Source: a virus
Direction: 5' to 3' (one strand)
DNA: 43,140 nucleotides
IMG/VR virus record: IMGVR_UViG_3300046512_000017
Span: 1 to 43,140 of that record
Shown here: positions 6,206-43,140 of the stretch, piece after piece
Numbering within the stretch: the stretch's first letter is position 1
How the letters are laid out: each line of letters begins with the position of its first letter
Translations under genes and position numbers: made by a program
Notes under the pieces: generated by a model
What the model was told of the DNA's origin: nothing
Databases searched by the model: none
Seen by the model: only the letters and a program-made list of their open reading frames with translations

Positions 6206-7543
6206 ATGGCCGTGACAACCCCAGTTCTCCAGAGCGTTCTAAGGAGCGTTCTCTGGGGAACGTCAAGTCTTACACAACCTGCTGATCCGGCCCCCGCACC
6301 TTACCAGTTCGTGGGGTCTCGCGGTGAGTTGAACATCGCCCTCAGCGGCGTGTCCACCACGGCCAACTATCGACGCACTGGTAGAACCCGACACTACCTC
6401 GGTAACGCTCCGGTGTCTGAGATGAGGCTGTTATTCAACGGCTACATCACGGATTCGGTCGCTGGCGAAACTGACATCCCGAACGCCTACACCATCAAGG
6501 TCAACATCGAGGCGAACGGTCTGTCCGTCCCGATCTACTTCGAAAGTGGCAACCGTACCGGCACTGTAAACCCCGGCGTTGCTGAGTATTCCTCAGACAT
6601 CATCACCCCATCCATGTTTGGCCTTACCGTGTTCCCAGCGAACATGCAGTACTGGGTCAGGCACGAGGTGGCCGTTGTGGCTGGCGGTAAGTTCCCCTAC
6701 GCCCGCACACCGAACTACACCAACCTGATCACCGGAGAAACCTTCTGGATCGGCGGGGCTGCTGCTGTTGACCAGCTCACTCCTACCGGCGACATGACGG
6801 CGGCTTCAGGCTGGACGCAGAACTCTCACCTGTTCCTGCCTATGTGCATGATCGGGCGACCGACGAAGAAGATGATGGCTTGGGTTGTCATTGGTGCATC
6901 CATCGAATACGGCGCTGGTGACAACGCTGGCGATGGTGGCAATGATGGCGGCGGTCACATCCGTCGAGCCCTCTTCGATCTTAACGGCAAGAAGATTGCC
7001 CGCATGACCCTTGCCATCGGCGGGGAGAGTGCGAAGGGCTTCCTCACGACCTGTGCCAAGCGGCGTCAGGTGATCAAGTATGGCACCCACGCGATCTCTG
7101 GTCACGGCGGTAACGACTACACCAACGGCGAAACCCTCGCCAACACGCTAACACGTCTGGCTTCCGTCTGGGCACTGATCAAATCTGAAGGCGTCCCGTA
7201 CGTCGAGCAGATGGCTCTGTCCCCAAAGACCTACACCAGCAATGGCGTCACAGGCTTCGATACACTGGTTGATCAGACCGTCCGTCCCGGCTTTGAAACC
7301 GGAGGCGCATGGCGCGATGCCGGTAACTCTGCGATGGCTGCTGCTGTCCCAACGGACCCGAACCTAGATGGCTTCGTGGACCTTACGGCAGCTCAGGTTG
7401 ACAGCGTTGAAATCGCCAAGTGGAAGGCCCCACCTCGGTCGACAATCGACGGCACACATCCAGAGGCATGGGTACACATCGACATGGCCACATTGAACAA
7501 GCCTCACTACGAAAGCCTCAGGGCCTCGTACGAAGGCACATGA
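6206..7543 (+). CDS. SGNH/GDSL-hydrolase-like virion-type protein
   Basis: A 445-residue protein. The N-terminal half (about 1-215) is beta-rich and not recognised. The second half has the SGNH blocks in order: block I IGASIEYGAG (Ser232), block II Gly in IGGESAKGF (about 272), block III SGHGGND (Asn303), block V DGTHP (Asp415, His418, with the family's D-x-x-H spacing). An esterase that trims a host surface polysaccharide, such as a deacetylase, would fit. It lies two bases after a small beta protein and before the capsid gene, so it is probably virion-associated. The ATG at 6206 follows the previous stop directly; no strong ribosome site is visible. Confidence 0.78.
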   Translation: MAVTTPVLQSVLRSVLWGTSSLTQPADPAPAPYQFVGSRGELNIALSGVSTTANYRRTGRTRHYLGNAPVSEMRLLFNGYITDSVAGETDIPNAYTIKVNIEANGLSVPIYFESGNRTGTVNPGVAEYSSDIITPSMFGLTVFPANMQYWVRHEVAVVAGGKFPYARTPNYTNLITGETFWIGGAAAVDQLTPTGDMTAASGWTQNSHLFLPMCMIGRPTKKMMAWVVIGASIEYGAGDNAGDGGNDGGGHIRRALFDLNGKKIARMTLAIGGESAKGFLTTCAKRRQVIKYGTHAISGHGGNDYTNGETLANTLTRLASVWALIKSEGVPYVEQMALSPKTYTSNGVTGFDTLVDQTVRPGFETGGAWRDAGNSAMAAAVPTDPNLDGFVDLTAAQVDSVEIAKWKAPPRSTIDGTHPEAWVHIDMATLNKPHYESLRASYEGT

Positions 7544-21209: not shown

Positions 21210-21397
21210 CCATTGTGGAACACAACACCACCGTCGTTGCGACTACCGCACTTATGACCCCCTTCTGGCTACCAAGCTTGACTTCGGTATCTCAGGTGGC
21301 CGCGACCGTTACACCAATCCTCGGTGCCATCTGGCTCACAATCCAGATCGTCACCAAAACCTCAGAATGGTTGAAGAAGAAGAATGAAGACAAATAG
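21206..21397 (+). CDS. Class II holin, T7 gp17.5-like
   Basis: A 63-residue protein, matching T7 gp17.5 (67). Residues 15-30 are moderately hydrophobic; a clear membrane helix (VAATVTPILGAIWLTIQIV) is followed by TKTSEWLKKKNEDK, which resembles the gp17.5 end (VVDKMIDWKKANKE). Position between tail fibre and terS is the T7 position. The start chosen is the ATG at 21206 (ATGA overlap); an in-frame ATG at 21188 is possible. With the two-helix protein at 4636 the phage has two holin candidates. Confidence 0.8.
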   Translation: MTIVEHNTTVVATTALMTPFWLPSLTSVSQVAATVTPILGAIWLTIQIVTKTSEWLKKKNEDK

Positions 21398-21653
21398 CGA
21401 GAGCATGGCAGCTCTGTTCGATACGTTCGCAGAAGGGCTCGCCAAGCTACTCAAAGAGGGCAAGACCGCTGTCAACAAGGATGGAGAGGTTGTCCAACTA
21501 ACCCCAGACGCTGCGACCTTCAACGTCGTCCGACAGTTCCTCAAGGACACCGGAACGACCATCGCGCCGAATAGCAACAAGAAAGTGAACGATATCGCCG
21601 AAATGCTGCCCTTTACCGGGGAAGAGCATGAGGAAGATTCGCACTTCCACTAG
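21384..21653 (+). CDS. terS: Terminase small subunit, T7 gp18-like
   Basis: An 89-residue protein, the same length as T7 gp18. It has a helical N-terminal region (ESMAALFDTFAEGLAKLLKEGKT), DAATFNVVRQFLKDTGTTIAP with the family look, and an acidic end (LPFTGEEHEEDSHFH). It would recognise concatemeric DNA and pass it to TerL. It overlaps the holin gene by 14 bases. A structured 121-base gap separates it from terL. Confidence 0.88.
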   Translation: MKTNSESMAALFDTFAEGLAKLLKEGKTAVNKDGEVVQLTPDAATFNVVRQFLKDTGTTIAPNSNKKVNDIAEMLPFTGEEHEEDSHFH

Positions 21654-21658
21654 AACGC

Positions 21659-21746
21659 CCACACAGCCTCACTGAGAGCGTCGGCCCTTCGCTGGACCGA
21701 TGACACCTCCGTGTGCCTCCGTGCCTCTCAGTGAGCACCTGTGTGG
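21659..21746 (+). other. Long branched inverted repeat between terS and terL
   Basis: Left arm CCACACAG-c-CTCACTGAGAG (21659-21678) pairs with right arm CTCTCAGTGAG-cac-CTGTGTGG (21725-21746): 19 perfect base pairs with a small internal loop. The enclosed 46 bases form two further hairpins: TCGG...CCGA with a CC/GG extension (21681-21700), and ACAC-CTCC-GTGT (21702-21713). No T-run follows, so it is not a simple terminator. An RNase III site or a packaging-related RNA/DNA element would fit. Confidence 0.8.
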
Positions 21747-21774
21747 CCCGATATCTCCACACTCAGGAATATTA

Positions 21775-23496
21775 GTGACCAAACTAAAGTCTTCGACCGC
21801 GCTTACCCCGCAGGCCGACCCAATCCTGTCCAATTTCAAGAACTTCCTCTTCCTCGTCTGGAAGCAGTTCCTCGACGGCAAGCTGCCGACCCCTGTCCAG
21901 TACGACATCGCAGACTTCCTACAGCATGGCCCGAAGCGCTCCGTGATCGAGGCCTTCCGTGGCGTAGGGAAGTCTTGGGTCACCTCGGCCTTCGTGGTCT
22001 GGTGCCTGCTGCGCAACCCGAACCTGAACATCCTCGTCATCTCGGCCTCCAAGAACCGCTCTGACGACTTCTCGATCTTCACGATGCGCATCATCCTTGA
22101 GATGCCGATGTGCGCCCACCTCATTCCTGGGCCTGATCAGCGCTCGTCCATGATCGCCTTCGACGTCGGGCCTGCCACCGCATCGCATGCACCGTCCGTC
22201 AAGTCCCTCGGCATCAACTCACAGATCGCCGGTAGCCGTGCTGACATCCTGATTGCCGACGACATCGAGGTCCCGAACAACTCCGACACCCAGCTCAAGC
22301 GTGACCAACTCGGTGAGAAGGTCAAGGAGTTCGACGCCGTCCTGAAACCGGGGGGTCGCATCATCTACCTCGGTACACCGCAGTCCGAACAGTCGCTCTA
22401 CAACGTCCTGCCTGAGCGCGGCTACATCCTACGAATCTGGCCAGCCAGGTATCCCACTGAGCAGCAGTTGGGCAAGTATGGTCCACGCCTAGCTCCCTTG
22501 ATCACCAAGGCTCTCAGTGAGGCTGCTGATGCCGGTGAGGACATATCAGGGAAGTCTACGGACCCCCAGCGCTTCAACGACACAGATCTTGGTGAACGAG
22601 AGTTGTCCTATGGTCGCTCTGGCTTCGCCCTTCAGTTCATGCTGGACACCTCGCTGTCCGACGCGGACAAGTTCCCGCTCAAGCTATCCGACCTGATCGT
22701 CATGCCCCTCGACCTGAACCGTGCCCCTACAGCGCTCTCATGGGCCTCTGGGAAGGATCAGCGCATCGACCACCTACAGGCGGTGGGTCTCCCCGGCGAC
22801 GGCTACCACAGGCCAATGTGGTACGATAAGGAGAGCCTCCCATACGAGGGATCTGTCATGTTCGTTGACCCCTCCGGTCGCGGCGGTGACGAGACTGTCT
22901 GGGCTGTGGTCAAGCACCTCCACGGCAACCTCTACTTCACGGCCATGGGTACCGCCCGAAACAAGGGCTACGACATCGCCGTCCTCAAGAGCATCCTCGC
23001 CTGCGCTAAGAAGCAGAAGGTCAACAAGATCATCGTTGAGCCCAACTTCGGTGACGGCATGTTCGCCCAGCTCCTGCGCAACGAAGCCCTGCTCACCTAT
23101 CCTTGTGAGATCGAGGACAGCGCATGGGCCAAGAACCAGAAGGAGGTCCGTATCATCGATACCCTCGAGCCCGTCATGAACCAGCACCGTCTCATCGTGG
23201 ACGAGGCTGTCATTGAATGGGACTACACGTCCACACAGGACTACGCCAAGGAGGAGCAGCTCTACATGCGACTGATGTACCAGCTTACTCGCCTTACCGC
23301 TCAGCGGGGCTCTCTGGCCAAGGATGACCGTGTTGATGCTCTAGCTGGTGCTGTTGCCTACTGGGTAGAGTTCCTCTCCCGTAACGATAAGACCTCTAGT
23401 GACCAGTTGAAGGCTGACGCCTTGCAGGCTGAGCTGGACAAGTTCCTCGACACCTTCGGTAACGGGGCTCAGGGCTCTGCCCTTCGCTTCTTCTAA
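21775..23496 (+). CDS. terL: Terminase large subunit, T7 gp19-like
   Basis: A 573-residue protein (T7 gp19 is 586), the ATP-driven packaging motor with C-terminal nuclease. Visible motifs are Walker A EAFRGVGKSW (Lys66), SASKNRSDDFSIF, Walker B region ILIADDIE (about 160), the motif III-like IIYLGTPQSEQSLY, and nuclease motif MFVDPSGRGGDE (Asp365), with KDDRVDALAGAVAYW near the end. The start chosen is GTG at 21775 after CAGGAAT. An in-frame ATG at 21700 would run the protein through the terS-terL hairpin, which is unlikely. Confidence 0.95.
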   Translation: MTKLKSSTALTPQADPILSNFKNFLFLVWKQFLDGKLPTPVQYDIADFLQHGPKRSVIEAFRGVGKSWVTSAFVVWCLLRNPNLNILVISASKNRSDDFSIFTMRIILEMPMCAHLIPGPDQRSSMIAFDVGPATASHAPSVKSLGINSQIAGSRADILIADDIEVPNNSDTQLKRDQLGEKVKEFDAVLKPGGRIIYLGTPQSEQSLYNVLPERGYILRIWPARYPTEQQLGKYGPRLAPLITKALSEAADAGEDISGKSTDPQRFNDTDLGERELSYGRSGFALQFMLDTSLSDADKFPLKLSDLIVMPLDLNRAPTALSWASGKDQRIDHLQAVGLPGDGYHRPMWYDKESLPYEGSVMFVDPSGRGGDETVWAVVKHLHGNLYFTAMGTARNKGYDIAVLKSILACAKKQKVNKIIVEPNFGDGMFAQLLRNEALLTYPCEIEDSAWAKNQKEVRIIDTLEPVMNQHRLIVDEAVIEWDYTSTQDYAKEEQLYMRLMYQLTRLTAQRGSLAKDDRVDALAGAVAYWVEFLSRNDKTSSDQLKADALQAELDKFLDTFGNGAQGSALRFF

Positions 23497-23541
23497 GGCC
23501 TACTCCTGACACCTAAGTGACCTCTGTCCTACCTCTGTTTG

Positions 23542-23560
23542 AATAGGTCCCCCCCTAGCA
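23542..23560 (+). promoter_or_regulatory. Putative phage RNA polymerase promoter, copy B
   Basis: AATAGGTCCCCCCCTAGCA matches copy C through TGAATAGGT and differs from A and C by one T-to-C change. It lies 46 bases after terL and reads towards the non-coding/early region. T7 has phi-OR near the right end in the same place. A role in concatemer processing or replication start is possible. Confidence 0.62.
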
Positions 23561-23561
23561 C

Positions 23562-23767
23562 GGGTCCCCTATGGTCACCTAAGGTTACCTAAGGTAGACC
23601 ATGGTCATACCTTGGTAGGCATAGGCCACCATGGTCCTACCTGATGGAGACCAAGGACACCAAGGTCCTACTCAGTAGCCATGAGGGAGAGGGGCCACCC
23701 CCATAGGGGACCCCCACCTAAGGTCAACCATAGACCACCTAAGCCACCGTAGCCTCACCATGGGGTT
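23562..23767. repeat. Cluster of ACC-GGT palindromes framed by an inverted repeat
   Basis: GGGTCCCCTATGG (23562-23574) has a perfect 13-base inverse complement at 23701-23713. Between and just beyond them are many short related palindromes: ACCTAAGGT at least three times, ACCATGGTC twice, ACCTTGGT, ACCAAGG twice, and CACCATGG. The block 23681-23715 also stacks G4 and C4-5 runs. T7 carries arrays of the 7-mer CCTAAAG beside its terminal repeats; the CCTAAGG repeats here, right after terL, suggest a similar end-proximal region. No coding sequence is visible. Confidence 0.65.
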
Positions 23768-24069
23768 CCTGGCCGCATAAGCATTGGTGTACCCTTGATG
23801 AACTCAGGGTTACTCGGGTGACTGCGGTGGCCGATGTTTACACCACAAAAATCCGAGGTGGCATCATATAGAGTGACCGCGCGGCGATACCCCCGTGGCC
23901 CCCCTCGATCTCGCCCATGGCACACGTACGCGCGGTGTAAAGAACACGGGCGCATGGTCTATTCTCCCAAGATTTATCCCAACGAGGCGGATTATACAAT
24001 GAAATCAATGGGGTTGATAGGATTTAACATCTTATCCCGAGTGATCCGACGAGATCCTAAGCGCCCTAG
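23768..24069. other. Non-coding stretch between palindrome cluster and 15-bp array
   Basis: About 300 bases without a convincing gene. An 84-residue frame (23834-24088) has no ribosome site and is Arg/Pro-rich in its first half, so I do not call it. There is a small GGAT...ATCC inverted repeat (about 24026-24043). No clear host sigma-70 promoter is visible. The GC-rich left part gives way to AT-richer sequence near 23945, which may mark a functional boundary such as the genome end. Confidence 0.4.
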
Positions 24070-24325
24070 GGTATCGATAGCGCCCTAATCGATAGCATGC
24101 TAATCATATGTTTGCGCATTGCTGTCTTGCTATCGATGTGTGAGCTAATCGTTAGCATCCTAATCGTTAGGACACCAATGATAACCCTAGAAACCATAAG
24201 CGCCCTAATGTTTCCCTTGCTAATCGATAGTTCGCCAATGGTTGGCATGCTAATCATATGTGCCCTAATCGATAGTGCACCAATAGTTACATAGGCTAAT
24301 CGTTAGTGCCCTAGCGATTCCATGG
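24070..24325. repeat. Array of about 17 degenerate 15-bp repeats (core CTAATCGATAG)
   Basis: Repeat cores begin at 24070, 24085, 24100, 24115, 24130, 24145, 24160, 24175, 24190, 24205, 24220, 24235, 24250, 24265, 24280, 24296 and 24311: a 15-base period with one 1-base slip. Best units are CTAATCGATAG, CTAATCGTTAG and CTAATCATATG. Each is near-palindromic (CTAA-TCG-TTAG). Units at 24115 and 24190 are badly decayed. An every-third pattern is visible (CTAATCG, CTAATCA/G, CCAATGG/A). The array is AT-rich in a GC-rich genome. It looks like an iterated protein-binding site or an origin/packaging element. Confidence 0.85.
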
Positions 24326-24757
24326 TGGCGTCGGTCGGTCGGTCGGTCCGACCATAGGCACCATGGGCCTTCCATGCGCGTTCTCTATACGGCGCGTACA
24401 TGCACGTACGTTCTTGATCCCGTTTTAGGGCGATCGATCGGCAAAAGGCGTGGCAAATCAGTGCCTTGTCCTCGGCTAAGTGATTGATCCGACTCAATTA
24501 TCTGTGCTTTTTCAGTAGCTGATTTGGTGTAATTTCTGGCAAAAAGCGGGCATTTGCATCCGATGGCGTTGAAATAAATGCCCAATGAAAACAGGCACTT
24601 AAACGAATAATTGTCCCAATCGAAAATAGATAGTTGCAGCAGTGGGCGGATTGCCCGATATTCAAATCACACCAAACGAAACACAAACAAACGAAAGCAG
24701 ACGGACATGACGAGCGACACGGCTGACGAGCCTTAAACGTGAGCGGCCTAGCCACTC
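24326..24757. other. Non-coding upstream region of the early genes
   Basis: It begins with a TCGG tetramer repeated about four times that closes into GGTC-GGTCC-GACC (24331-24353), flanked by CCATGG-type palindromes. Further on it is AT-richer and without a credible gene on either strand; a 182-residue minus-strand frame has no coding character. GGCT-GACG-AGCC (near 24719-24732) could form a hairpin. Early host promoters should lie here, but I could not identify a good -35/-10 pair. Confidence 0.4.
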
Positions 24758-24769
24758 GGTTCTTTGACA
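24758..24769 (+). promoter_or_regulatory. boxA-like element (GGTTCTTTGACA)
   Basis: GGTTCTTTGACAACTGAATA resembles the boxA antitermination sequence of bacterial rRNA leaders and spacers (TGYTCTTTRACA). It also contains TTGACA, but nothing like TATAAT follows at 16-18 bases. As the start of a hairpin-rich untranslated leader, an antitermination role for early transcription would make sense. It could equally be chance similarity. Confidence 0.35.
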
Positions 24770-24784
24770 ACTGAATAATTACCA

Positions 24785-25060
24785 GCAGAGAGAGCGTCTC
24801 TGCCAGCCAACGAACAGGCTGGGGCTTAAATGCCCGCATGTAGCTACGAACCACGGTTCCTCTGGCGGATGTAGTGACCGTGTCCACCCAAACGGTCTGA
24901 AAATGAAGAGCACCACCACAGTGCAAACTACGGAGCACCACAGAGTGAGTGCAAACCACGAAACTACCAAGTCGAGGGCCGCTGTACGGACTATAAACAG
25001 AGCGGAACGCCGCTAGGGCGGAAGGCAAGCCTCCTACAATAGGCACCTAGCAGAATTGCT
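24785..25060 (+). other. Hairpin-rich leader upstream of the first early gene
   Basis: Successive perfect stems: GCAGAGA/TCTCTGC (24785-24803, 5-base loop), CCAGCC/GGCTGG (24803-24822), then two mutually exclusive stems sharing one strand. ACCGTG (24877-24882) can pair back with CACGGT (24852-24857), or GACCGT (24876-24881) forward with ACGGTC (24892-24897). A tandem duplication follows (24908-24932 and 24933-24960), each copy holding GCAC...GTGC, then AGCGG-AACG-CCGCT near 25001. No open frame fits. It looks like a structured 5' leader or a small RNA. Confidence 0.5.
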
Positions 25061-25122
25061 TACTTCTCAGTCACTGGCAACGGCGGCTGAGCGGCAACCA
25101 ATTCCAACCACGGAGCCACGGA

Positions 25123-25299
25123 ATGGAAACCTTAAGCTTTACCACGCGAGCTGGTCTTGCCTACAAGATCCGCGTCACGGAAGACATCGGCCACGCTCTA
25201 GTCGGCGAGGTGCTAGAAGCCAAGCGCAAGCACTTCATTGGCAAATACCTTGCCTTCCCAAAGCACGACATGGCCTCGGTCAAGAGGGTAGCGGCATGA
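25123..25299 (+). CDS. First early gene, small basic protein
   Basis: A 58-residue protein, METLSFTTRAGLAYKIRVTED...VKRVAA, with GGAG eight bases before the ATG. It has a beta-like first half and a basic, helical second half (GEVLEAKRKHFIGKYLAFPKHDM). It is the first gene after the long leader, where T7-like phages place host-takeover or anti-defence proteins. No family is recognised. It overlaps the next small frame (ATGA). Confidence 0.7.
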   Translation: METLSFTTRAGLAYKIRVTEDIGHALVGEVLEAKRKHFIGKYLAFPKHDMASVKRVAA

Positions 25300-28340: not shown

Positions 28341-28483
28341 ACCACCCCAAGCTCGTCGCTGCCCGTCGTGCCGCTGTCGCCCACCACGGTAACGTCCGTA
28401 TGCCTTCACCGGCTGCGGCCATGGTCCGCAACAGTGCGTACTTCATCACCGGGGCTGCGGCTTCCGGCGTTCGCTTCGCTTAA
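28331..28483 (+). CDS. Small basic hypothetical protein
   Basis: A 50-residue, Ala/Arg/His-rich protein (MHLNHPKLVAARRAAVAHHGNVRMPSP...). The N-terminal half could be an amphipathic or nucleic-acid-binding helix. It closes the tightly overlapped early chain that begins at 27067; a 25-base gap follows. No family is recognised. Confidence 0.55.
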   Translation: MHLNHPKLVAARRAAVAHHGNVRMPSPAAAMVRNSAYFITGAAASGVRFA

Positions 28484-28508
28484 TCTCCAGTCAACAAAGG
28501 AAACCATC

Positions 28509-29012
28509 ATGAACTTCAAGAACCTCATCGGTAAGACCGTCGTCGTGAACTACTACGGCGAACACATGACAGGTCCCGTAATCAACACTTATGGCGACGG
28601 CTTCGACATGCTGCGTCTCGACAACGAAGGATGGGAGAGCCTTGAGTACGTAGAGCAGGCCAAGAAGCTTGGCATCGAGATCCCGAACAAGCCACGCTTC
28701 TGGTTCATCGCCAGCGCACATCTTGTCGTTGGTGTCGTCACGCCGCTGTCCGAGTTCACCCAGGCTGAGCCCGAATCACCTGTCGCCATCCCAAGCACAC
28801 CCATCGAACCCACGGCACCGATGACCGCTCAGGTCCTCCAGATGCTGCGCAAGAAGGGCGATGTGACGTCTATCGAGGCGTCGGGTGTCCTGCGCTGCCG
28901 GTCACTTAGTAAGCGCATCACGGAGTTGAAGAGACTGGGACATAATATCACACGTACGTTGCACGAGGACCACACTGGTCAGCGCTACGCTCGTTACATT
29001 CTCGCAGCATAA
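28509..29012 (+). CDS. Two-domain protein with C-terminal helix-turn-helix
   Basis: A 167-residue protein with AAAGGAAACC before the ATG. Residues 1-80 look like a small beta-barrel (NLIGKTVVVNYYGEHMTGPVINTYGDGFDMLRLDNEGWESLEYVEQAKK). A Pro-rich linker (about 90-110) follows. Residues 110-167 (MTAQVLQMLRKKGDVTSIEASGVLRCRSLSKRITELKRLGHNI) match the small winged HTH often found in phage proteins (HTH_39-like: Q-x2-IL-x2-L, EA-x5-C, RI-x-ELK-x2-G). It is the last gene before a 226-base regulatory gap, so an early-gene regulator is plausible. Confidence 0.75.
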   Translation: MNFKNLIGKTVVVNYYGEHMTGPVINTYGDGFDMLRLDNEGWESLEYVEQAKKLGIEIPNKPRFWFIASAHLVVGVVTPLSEFTQAEPESPVAIPSTPIEPTAPMTAQVLQMLRKKGDVTSIEASGVLRCRSLSKRITELKRLGHNITRTLHEDHTGQRYARYILAA

Positions 29013-29103
29013 TCAACGCCTTAACCAGTGGCGGCACGGTGCTACGCCTACACATTCGCTGGCATGTACACTTGGATACACTGTGTTACATAAATCCTAT
29101 CGA

Positions 29104-29121
29104 CATTAACAATTGTTAATG
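29104..29121. promoter_or_regulatory. 18-bp perfect palindrome, operator candidate
   Basis: CATTAACAATTGTTAATG is a perfect 18-base palindrome in the 226-base gap 29013-29238. MarR-type dimers bind palindromes of this size, and a MarR-like gene starts 395 bases downstream. Just upstream TTGGAT (near 29072) and an AT-rich stretch could be part of a host promoter. The gap also has a G-rich block with GGGG-TAGTTAGTAG-CCCC (near 29161-29178) and a CT-repeat before the next gene. Confidence 0.55.
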
Positions 29122-29238
29122 ATCCAAGAAGCTCATATGGATCGCCTAGCCGGGGGGCAGGGGTAGTTAGTAGCCCCAACAATCTCGGCGGTCCTGCACT
29201 GAAAACTCTCTCTCTCTCCCACGAGGATTAAACCCAAA

Positions 29239-29427
29239 GTGTACGCAACTGCCCCAGAATACTTTGAAAGCATCAACCCCGAGGCGGCGGACCTGATGCC
29301 TGACTATATTGAAGACACTGCTTGGCTAATCGCACAGTCAAAGATGCGAGGCCTACGTATAATCTTACCCTCAGATAATTCCGAACCTCTCTTTGCGGAA
29401 GAACTCCTGCACGAACGCTTCAATTAA
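29239..29427 (+). CDS. Small acidic protein upstream of the regulator gene
   Basis: A 62-residue acidic protein from GTG 29239, with GAGG about 12 bases upstream. YFESINPEAADLMPDYIEDTAWLIAQSKMRGLRIILPS looks helix-then-strand. It lies between the palindrome and the MarR-like gene, and its codons are less GC-rich at third positions than neighbouring genes, a possible sign of separate origin of the 29.0-29.9 kb module. Function is unknown. Confidence 0.6.
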   Translation: MYATAPEYFESINPEAADLMPDYIEDTAWLIAQSKMRGLRIILPSDNSEPLFAEELLHERFN

Positions 29428-29515
29428 GTTCTTGCAATTGCTTCATAAATGAGGAAGATGTGCGTGTGGAGACAAAATCACCAATAAACCATTGAAACTG
29501 GGACCACGCATAGCC

Positions 29516-29866
29516 ATGACGAAGGAACAGCAAAACCAGACCGCTAAGGCAGCTCGCAAGGTTGCATCAATCATCGAAGAGTTCAGGAAGCTGAACGCTG
29601 AGATGCAAGCACAACAGATGGCGATCTTCCTCGCCGTAGTCGCAAAGCCAGAATGCACCGTAACCGACCTCGCCAACATCACGGGCCACTCTACCGGCAC
29701 CGTATCGAGGAACGTAGCTGCGCTCAGCAAGATCCACCGCAAAGGCATGCCGGGACTGGACATCATCCAAGCTAAGGAAGATGTCCTCGACCGCCGCAAC
29801 AAGCGGATCACACTCACACCGAAGGGCCAGCGTGTCATGGCCGCACTGGAGGCATTGCTTGATTGA
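29516..29866 (+). CDS. MarR-like winged-helix transcription regulator
   Basis: A 116-residue protein. Helical N-terminus (QTAKAARKVASIIEEFRKLNAEMQAQQMAIFLAV), then helix-turn-helix (CTVTDLANITGHSTGTVSRNVAALS), a wing (DIIQAKEDVLDRRNKRITLTPKGQRVMAALEALL) ending in the MarR-type LTPKG. It would bind a palindrome as a dimer. ATG 29516 is chosen; TTG 29492 is an in-frame alternative, and neither has a strong ribosome site. It is coupled to the integrase (TTGATTGA overlap). A lysogeny or integrase-control role is inferred from that coupling. Confidence 0.82.
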   Translation: MTKEQQNQTAKAARKVASIIEEFRKLNAEMQAQQMAIFLAVVAKPECTVTDLANITGHSTGTVSRNVAALSKIHRKGMPGLDIIQAKEDVLDRRNKRITLTPKGQRVMAALEALLD

Positions 29867-30854
29867 AGCTCGAGGACAGAGTTTCCGCTCAAAGTTCATG
29901 GTGAAAGGGACGTCCTATGTGGCGTCCTTTCCGACTCTGGACGAGGCGGAAGATTGGGAAGCAGACAGCAGGCGGCGTCTCAAGCGTGGCCTGCCGGTCG
30001 AACAGCCAACAGCGATGGTTGGTGGGGCTGACGTTGGCACCATCGGCAACACAACCCGCGCCATCATCAAGGAGCACTGGGAACCGCAGCGCGACAGCAA
30101 GTCTCAGATCGCCAACGCCAAGACGTTCCTAAGCTGGGTGGGTCCTTCGACCCCGGTCACCGAGGCCCTCTCCGCGAAGAACATCACGGCGTTCAGGACG
30201 TACCTCATCCACGAGCGCGGACTGGCACCGACAACGGTCAACCGCTACGGGTCGATGCTGCGGATCATAACCCGTAAGGCGAAGGTCCCCTGGGACCCTG
30301 AGCTATTCCCGCATGACGCCAAGTCGGAAAGGGAGAACGGTCGTGATCGGTTCTTTACGAAGGCCGAGTTCGAGACCATCGTCGCGTGGATGGACCAGAA
30401 CGGCTTCCATCGGCAGCGAGACTTCTTCATCTTCCTGACGCATACCGGCGCTCGTCCATGGAGCGAGGGTGAGCCGCTTAAGTGGTCTGATGTCCACGAC
30501 GGTAAGGTCACCTTCCGTGTGACGAAGACGGGCCGACCGCGTACCGTACCGCTCTCACCAAGGGCGCTGGAGGCGGTCAACAACCAACGCGCTCTCGGCA
30601 AGAATGGGCCATGGACTGGTCTCCGCTGCCGCACGATGGTGTCCTTCTGGAAGATCGTGAAGGATGCAATCCCAGGCCTTGACGACAGTGTCATCTACAC
30701 CTGCCGCCATACCTGCGCATCTTGGCAGGTCCAAGACGGTATATCGCTGTACCATGTCGGAGTGTGGATGGGTCACACCAACCCGCTGACGACGCAGCGC
30801 TACGCCAAGCTCTCTCCTGAGCATCTGGTGGCCAACATGGCTACGTTCGCTTAA
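29859..30854 (+). CDS. int: Tyrosine-recombinase integrase
   Basis: A 331-residue phage integrase. The N-terminal arm-binding region (GQSFRSKFMVKGTSYVASFPTLDEAEDWEADSRRR) is followed by a core-binding domain (about 75-165) and catalytic domain. Catalytic residues: Arg199 (HTGARPWSE), Lys in the beta hairpin (about 222), Arg283 in YTCRHTCAS, His306 in MGHTNPLTT, and Tyr315 in RYAKL. The usual first His of HxxR is Tyr280, a substitution seen in other integrases. The TTG start at 29859 has GGAGG six bases upstream and overlaps the regulator stop; later starts would cut the arm domain. Confidence 0.93.
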   Translation: MIEARGQSFRSKFMVKGTSYVASFPTLDEAEDWEADSRRRLKRGLPVEQPTAMVGGADVGTIGNTTRAIIKEHWEPQRDSKSQIANAKTFLSWVGPSTPVTEALSAKNITAFRTYLIHERGLAPTTVNRYGSMLRIITRKAKVPWDPELFPHDAKSERENGRDRFFTKAEFETIVAWMDQNGFHRQRDFFIFLTHTGARPWSEGEPLKWSDVHDGKVTFRVTKTGRPRTVPLSPRALEAVNNQRALGKNGPWTGLRCRTMVSFWKIVKDAIPGLDDSVIYTCRHTCASWQVQDGISLYHVGVWMGHTNPLTTQRYAKLSPEHLVANMATFA

Positions 30855-42929: not shown

Positions 42930-43140
42930 GTGAAACGCACCCTACTGATTGACACCGACATCCTGATCGTATCCGGCTGCGCTGCCGGTATGAAAGAGTT
43001 CGAAGGCGAGGACGACGAGTGGTACTACTCCATCGACCTCAAAGAAGTGAAGCACACGCTCCTCCACACCGTCGAGCAAATCAAGAAGGAGCTAGAGGCA
43101 ACCGATGCAGTCCTTTGCATTTCACGAGGCACTACCTTCC
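42930..43140 (+). CDS. 5'-3' exonuclease (T7 gp6-like), 5' portion
   Basis: True start of the exonuclease: GTG at 42930 gives MKRTLLIDTDILIVSGCAAG before the Met at contig position 3, supplying the first metal-binding aspartates (Asp8, Asp10) found at the N-terminus of this nuclease family (T7 gp6: LVMDGDWLVF). It runs off the contig end and continues in frame at position 1. This copy reads AVLCISRG where the left copy has AVHCISRG. Confidence 0.93.
   Translation, partial: MKRTLLIDTDILIVSGCAAGMKEFEGEDDEWYYSIDLKEVKHTLLHTVEQIKKELEATDAVLCISRGTTF
42988..43140. repeat. Contig-end overlap, right copy
   Basis: Repeats 1-153 with one mismatch (T at 43114 against A at 127). See the left copy. The shared sequence closes the molecule into a circle or a concatemer/permuted form. 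Confidence 0.93.

Follow-up and report, generated by a model that had tools for sequence, protein, structure and literature searches.

A 15-base repeat array at the predicted genome end of a T7-like phage, a probable counterpart of the short-repeat array of T7

Results

Genome context and layout of the locus

The window analysed here, 43,140 bases long, is the whole of virus record IMGVR_UViG_3300046512_000017; it is T7-like (Autographiviridae), circularly closed and contains an integrase. It encodes a T7-type RNA polymerase (55% identity to that of Mesorhizobium phage Lo5R7ANS and 43% to that of Rhizobium phage Pasto), a primase-helicase, DNA polymerase, portal, large and small terminase subunits and a tyrosine integrase. 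The closest relatives are IMG/VR records with large terminases that are 84-93% identical, together with one Rhizobium genome record, and because of these relatives the host is probably a member of Rhizobiales. A winged-helix HTH_39 gene, a MarR-like gene and the tyrosine integrase gene are consecutive at 28368-30854; a tRNA-Leu is present in this region of Lo5R7ANS and Pasto, and no tRNA was found in the window. A MarR-integrase pair is typical for temperate T7-like phages (PMC10134795).

The two tips of the record (1-153 and 42988-43140) overlap by 153 bases at 99.3% identity, leaving about 42,990 unique bases. Since this overlap falls within the exonuclease gene, the circular assembly was cut open arbitrarily, and fragments of a single gene make up both the first and the last ORF. 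The overlap stems from the assembly and is no terminal repeat, and the true genome ends are thus internal to the window. A circular assembly is the expected outcome when a T7-like phage has its terminal repeats collapsed (PMC3350473).

A gap separates the end of the large terminase gene (23496) from the next plausible gene start, near 25056. The features in and just ahead of this gap are as follows:

21384..21653, + strand: small terminase subunit, 89 aa (DNA_Packaging_2; PF11123, E 4.4e-07; phrog_891)
21700..23496, + strand: large terminase subunit, the last gene ahead of the array region (phrog_38, E 3e-110)
23560..23760, no strand: weaker array of 10-base CCTAAGG / CCATGG words (lag-10 z 6.1), between the terminase and the predicted terminal repeat
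23847..23863, no strand: left boundary block AAAAATCCGAGGTGGCA, just ahead of the predicted repeat start, laid out as T7 AAAAATCTGAG-N6^ and Pasto AAAAATCCGAG-N6^
23864..24131, no strand: predicted direct terminal repeat, 268 bases, in single copy (collapsed in the assembly), placed by homology, not reads
24055..24325, no strand: 15-base repeat array, about 17 units, core CTAATCG(T/A)TAG, with a 1-base slip between 24280 and 24296
24130..24144, no strand: array unit CTATCGATGTGTGAG holding the predicted right-hand cut (24131^24132), by homology to T7 and Pasto

A GGTC/GTCG tetranucleotide run (24328-24350; 4.8 copies, 100% match) lies directly past the last unit of the 15-base array. Upstream of the first early genes, 24759-24771 (GTTCTTTGACAAC) holds the stretch GGTTCTTTGACAACTGAATAAT, which we would liken to the boxA antitermination element of ribosomal RNA leaders; the same exact 13-mer is found downstream of the array region in the relatives labelled L003, L004 and L011. 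A search of the non-coding region against 50,697 phage records gave no match.

Structure of the 15-base array

A strong periodicity is evident where the sequence-only reading had placed an array. The two-unit pattern has seven matches, all within 24070-24290, and none in 100 shuffles; the lag-15 self-match has a z of 10.5 against dinucleotide shuffles, a value reached by 0 of 300; and the array is the strongest periodic segment of the window (z 11.7), above the 9-base repeats inside a gene at 19.2-19.9 kb. Units start at 24085, 24100, (24115), 24130, 24145 and so on to 24280, and then, after the single slip, at 24296 and 24311, with weaker units extending back to about 24055; the spacing, the approximate unit number and the one slip all agree with that reading, as does its description of an AT-rich run in a GC-rich genome (45% G+C in the array vs 58% overall). 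The consensus was built from 12 units chosen by the word C(C/T)AAT, so that its first five bases are fixed by selection; the positions that follow are C, G, T, T, A and G, each in 8 to 9 of the 12 units, which gives CTAATCG(T/A)TAG. Because the units have diverged, Tandem Repeats Finder, the kind of check that had been proposed, reports only a 2.2-copy piece, and it is the lag and pattern tests that confirm the period.

Other parts of the initial description hold less well. The best units had been called near-palindromic, and CTAATCGTTAG does agree with its reverse complement at 8 of its 11 positions; no more than three units reach that level, however, and the relatives' units that we checked form no consistent palindromes. 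The array strand folds better than shuffled sequence (z -3.35); we do not rely on a hairpin reading, since near-palindromic repeats alone would yield such folding. A 45-base super-period is not borne out: the mean identity of units three apart is 0.44, not above that at other distances, and the highest values (0.54) are at distances 4 and 8. The accompanying helical argument is weak as well, because at 10.5 bases per turn 15 bases make 1.43 turns and 45 bases 4.29.

A predicted terminal repeat that ends inside the array

In an alignment of the gap from nine phages, two boundaries are strongly conserved. The left boundary, AAAAATCCGAG-GTGGCA^TCA, matches T7 AAAAATCTGAG-TGACTA^TCTC and Pasto AAAAATCCGAG-ACACTG^AACT, where ^ marks the repeat start. 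The right boundary, CT^ATCGATGT, matches CCCT^ATCTGTT at the repeat ends of T7 (160) and Pasto (271, annotated as a PhageTerm prediction), and ATCGNTGT in the unit at 24130..24144 is invariant across nine aligned relatives. From this homology with T7 and Pasto we infer a terminal repeat at 23864-24131. Its predicted right-hand cut falls inside the array and in register with the 15-base lattice, so that the array would comprise the last ~75 bases of the repeat, the cut site as one unit, and ~190 bases beyond; the suggestion that the array lies near the probable genome end fits this placement.

We also looked at the relatives' contig tips as possible genome ends: 127- or 153-base overlaps occur in two of six and none in the others, and no tip is at the predicted boundary. 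When the phase of CNAT words is taken relative to the cut site in the relatives, the cut phase has the most matches (17 of 67); these come mainly from L008, L002 and L013, and L003, L007 and L010 peak at other phases, so the agreement is only suggestive.

Turnover of the array among relatives

The array is retained in close relatives, with gains and losses of whole units. Lag 15 is significant in seven of ten (L002, L003, L004, L006, L007, L008 and L013), an independent count below seven since L002, L004 and L006 form one cluster; L010 and L012 favour lag 10, and L011 has no significant lattice. After position 7449, L011 shows no lattice to the right of the cut motif and carries there what is apparently inserted, possibly coding, DNA. 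Most flanks of L002 and L004 are 99-100% identical, and their arrays differ by a net 30 bases; L002 and L006 differ by a net 45 bases with a 4-base irregularity. Units within one array share 0.34-0.53 identity, vs 0.25-0.27 when shuffled, and the words of different phages fall into at least two families (L002, L003 and L008 vs the window and L013), drifting to ~0.3-0.4 identity while the 15-base spacing persists. The alignment of related phages that had been asked for therefore shows a lineage-specific array, one that has neither vanished nor simply decayed among close relatives. Words similar to those of the 10-base array are also carried by relatives. A sister clade (L052 and L054; 59-65% terminase identity) has kept AATCGGTGT and has no clear array, which argues that the array is not strictly required for cutting.

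Short-period arrays at the ends of other T7-like phages

The sequence-only reading knew of no such array in T7-like phages; T7 itself has one directly to the right of its terminal repeat. In its record, words like CCTAAAG start at 175, 188, 213, 226, 239, 280, 293, 306, 319, 332 and 355; they form a 13-base lattice that directly follows the repeat end at 160, and the lag-13 score exceeds all shuffles. In SP6 and Pasto a lag-12 signal, higher than in any shuffle, starts at the repeat end or just past it; for SP6 we take this end to be at about 174. Short periods are found in the same stretch of Lo5R7ANS (11), where the end (~247) is approximate, being read from the record's two tips, and more weakly in T3 and gh-1 (12). 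P-SSP7 has no array at its mapped end. In a survey of 46 distant terminase loci, strong short periods were seen in L065 (12), L088 (11), L089 (12), L069 (21) and L071 (23); we left these arrays uncounted, as their repeat ends are unplaced and coding controls are sometimes equally high.

The T7 repeats beside the terminal repeat are presumably those named SRL and SRR, for which we know of no settled function. A literature search found no paper describing this array or explaining the repeats beside the T7 terminal repeat.

Discussion

The window array is a regular head-to-tail lattice that adjoins a predicted terminal repeat end, in a T7-like genome with the terminase genes upstream. It has neither the CCTAAAG word nor the 13-base spacing specific to T7; SP6, Pasto and the relatives also differ in these, and we therefore do not treat word and spacing as defining arrays of the T7 type. 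On these grounds the window array is very probably a genome-end array of the T7 kind.

Since the array sits at the concatemer junction, a function in concatemer processing and packaging is the first choice, and of the roles suggested at the outset a packaging signal fits best; an origin, a partition site and a MarR operator fit worse. We propose, at about even odds, that concatemer cutting and packaging use the array as an accessory region for recognition or spacing. In the concatemer, the order would be terminase gene, 10-base array, one terminal repeat, 15-base array and early region. Around the right-hand cut the 15-base array may then offer a landing region, multivalent and dependent on spacing, to the DNA-maturation machinery, which could be the small and large terminase subunits or a protein working with them; binding there would raise the efficiency of cutting and packaging, and the position of the cut itself would be set by the better conserved boundary motifs. 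The location of the array directly downstream of the terminase genes is consistent with such a role, and the small terminase (21384..21653) is a candidate actor. Strict reading of the word by this protein is unlikely, because the words change while the small terminase stays 64-81% identical among close relatives, and the large terminase identity of 84-93% likewise speaks against strict word reading by terminase; a degenerate, multivalent or spacing-based contact, or contact by another protein, is more likely. In a narrower version, which we think unlikely, the array would be the ruler, or scaffold, of an oligomeric maturation complex, with the cut site as one of the array's units. Selection in the clade would then have favoured the spacing (15 bases around the cut) over the word, and both the length of the ruler (10 to 15) and the word would have changed among T7-like lineages. 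If true, the ruler reading would make the array a spacing-coded packaging element.

The main rival to a packaging role is a by-product explanation: as the DNA is replicated and the terminal repeat completed, slippage, end repair or recombination would generate short repeats at the concatemer junction, and these would be tolerated in non-coding DNA without binding any protein. The gain and loss of units between close relatives, the variable words and period, the lack of a clear array in a sister clade that keeps the boundary, and the mapped end of P-SSP7 are all what such an origin would give. However, the spacing stays at 15 bases despite the drift of the words, a register that mutation by itself should tend to blur, and distant T7-like phages have arrays at this boundary too; we regard the by-product explanation as somewhat unlikely, though a serious contender. 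That arrays comparable to this one occupy the same place in the lytic phages T7 and SP6 also speaks against the idea of an operator or silencer array, through which a MarR-like, winged-helix or host protein would control early transcription or the choice between lysis and lysogeny. Iterated near-palindromic units would suit such a protein, and the phage and its relatives do encode MarR-like and HTH_39 proteins, but L010, L011 and L012 have both proteins without a significant 15-base lattice, a scan of 23400-25200 found no sigma-70-like promoter, and the MarR-like gene of LUZ100 lies far from the ends and shares a transcript with the integrase (PMC10134795). We consider this quite improbable.

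Two further roles would read the array as a set of sites for plasmid-like maintenance or replication. Regularly spaced direct repeats in A+T-richer non-coding DNA (45% G+C) are what origin iterons look like; this phage, however, has a T7-type RNA polymerase, primase-helicase and DNA polymerase, and replication of the T7 type is initiated from phage promoters rather than from iterons with an initiator protein. No initiator family appeared among the proteins scanned, a subset of the ORFs, and an iteron origin is very improbable. A centromere-like partition site for a plasmid state, which shares with the array only the general form of iterated sites, is hardly credible given that an integrase is present and that the same subset of proteins yielded no ParA, ParB or ParR family.

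The clade offers a natural series: the terminase is near-constant among close relatives, their arrays vary in word, period and number of units, and a sister clade has no clear array; one can thus ask whether word, spacing or number matters in concatemer cutting. Where a T7-like phage has been assembled as a circle, such arrays also mark its collapsed genome ends.

Comparison with known systems places the array closest to those of other T7-like phages. Like the terminase recognition sites of cos and pac systems, the units would be sites near a cut that are read by the small terminase; in PaP3, the small terminase has been proposed to contact the outer ends of a ~20-base cos site (PMC7672466). 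The array differs from these in that terminase is a putative binder, in that its words vary among close relatives, and in that a sister clade is without a clear array. With SP6 and Pasto it shares a short-period array that begins at the repeat end or just after it, although those phages have a 12-base period and other words (CCTTAGT in SP6, GCACCCATCGG in Pasto). As in T7, the array lies to the right of the terminal repeat's right-hand end, downstream of the terminase genes and upstream of the early genes, and consists of imperfect short units, head to tail on a fixed lattice, with homologous boundary motifs; T7 also has CCTAAGG and CCTAAAG words in its right-end repeat position, which matches the place of the 10-base array. 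Unlike T7, with its 13-base lattice and CCTAAAG word, the window has a 15-base lattice with the core CTAATCG(T/A)TAG, which enters the predicted terminal repeat by ~75 bases and makes the cut site itself a unit, and the phage belongs to another host group and has a temperate lifestyle. We take the 15-base array to be a further example of a known feature, the counterpart of the short-repeat array of T7.
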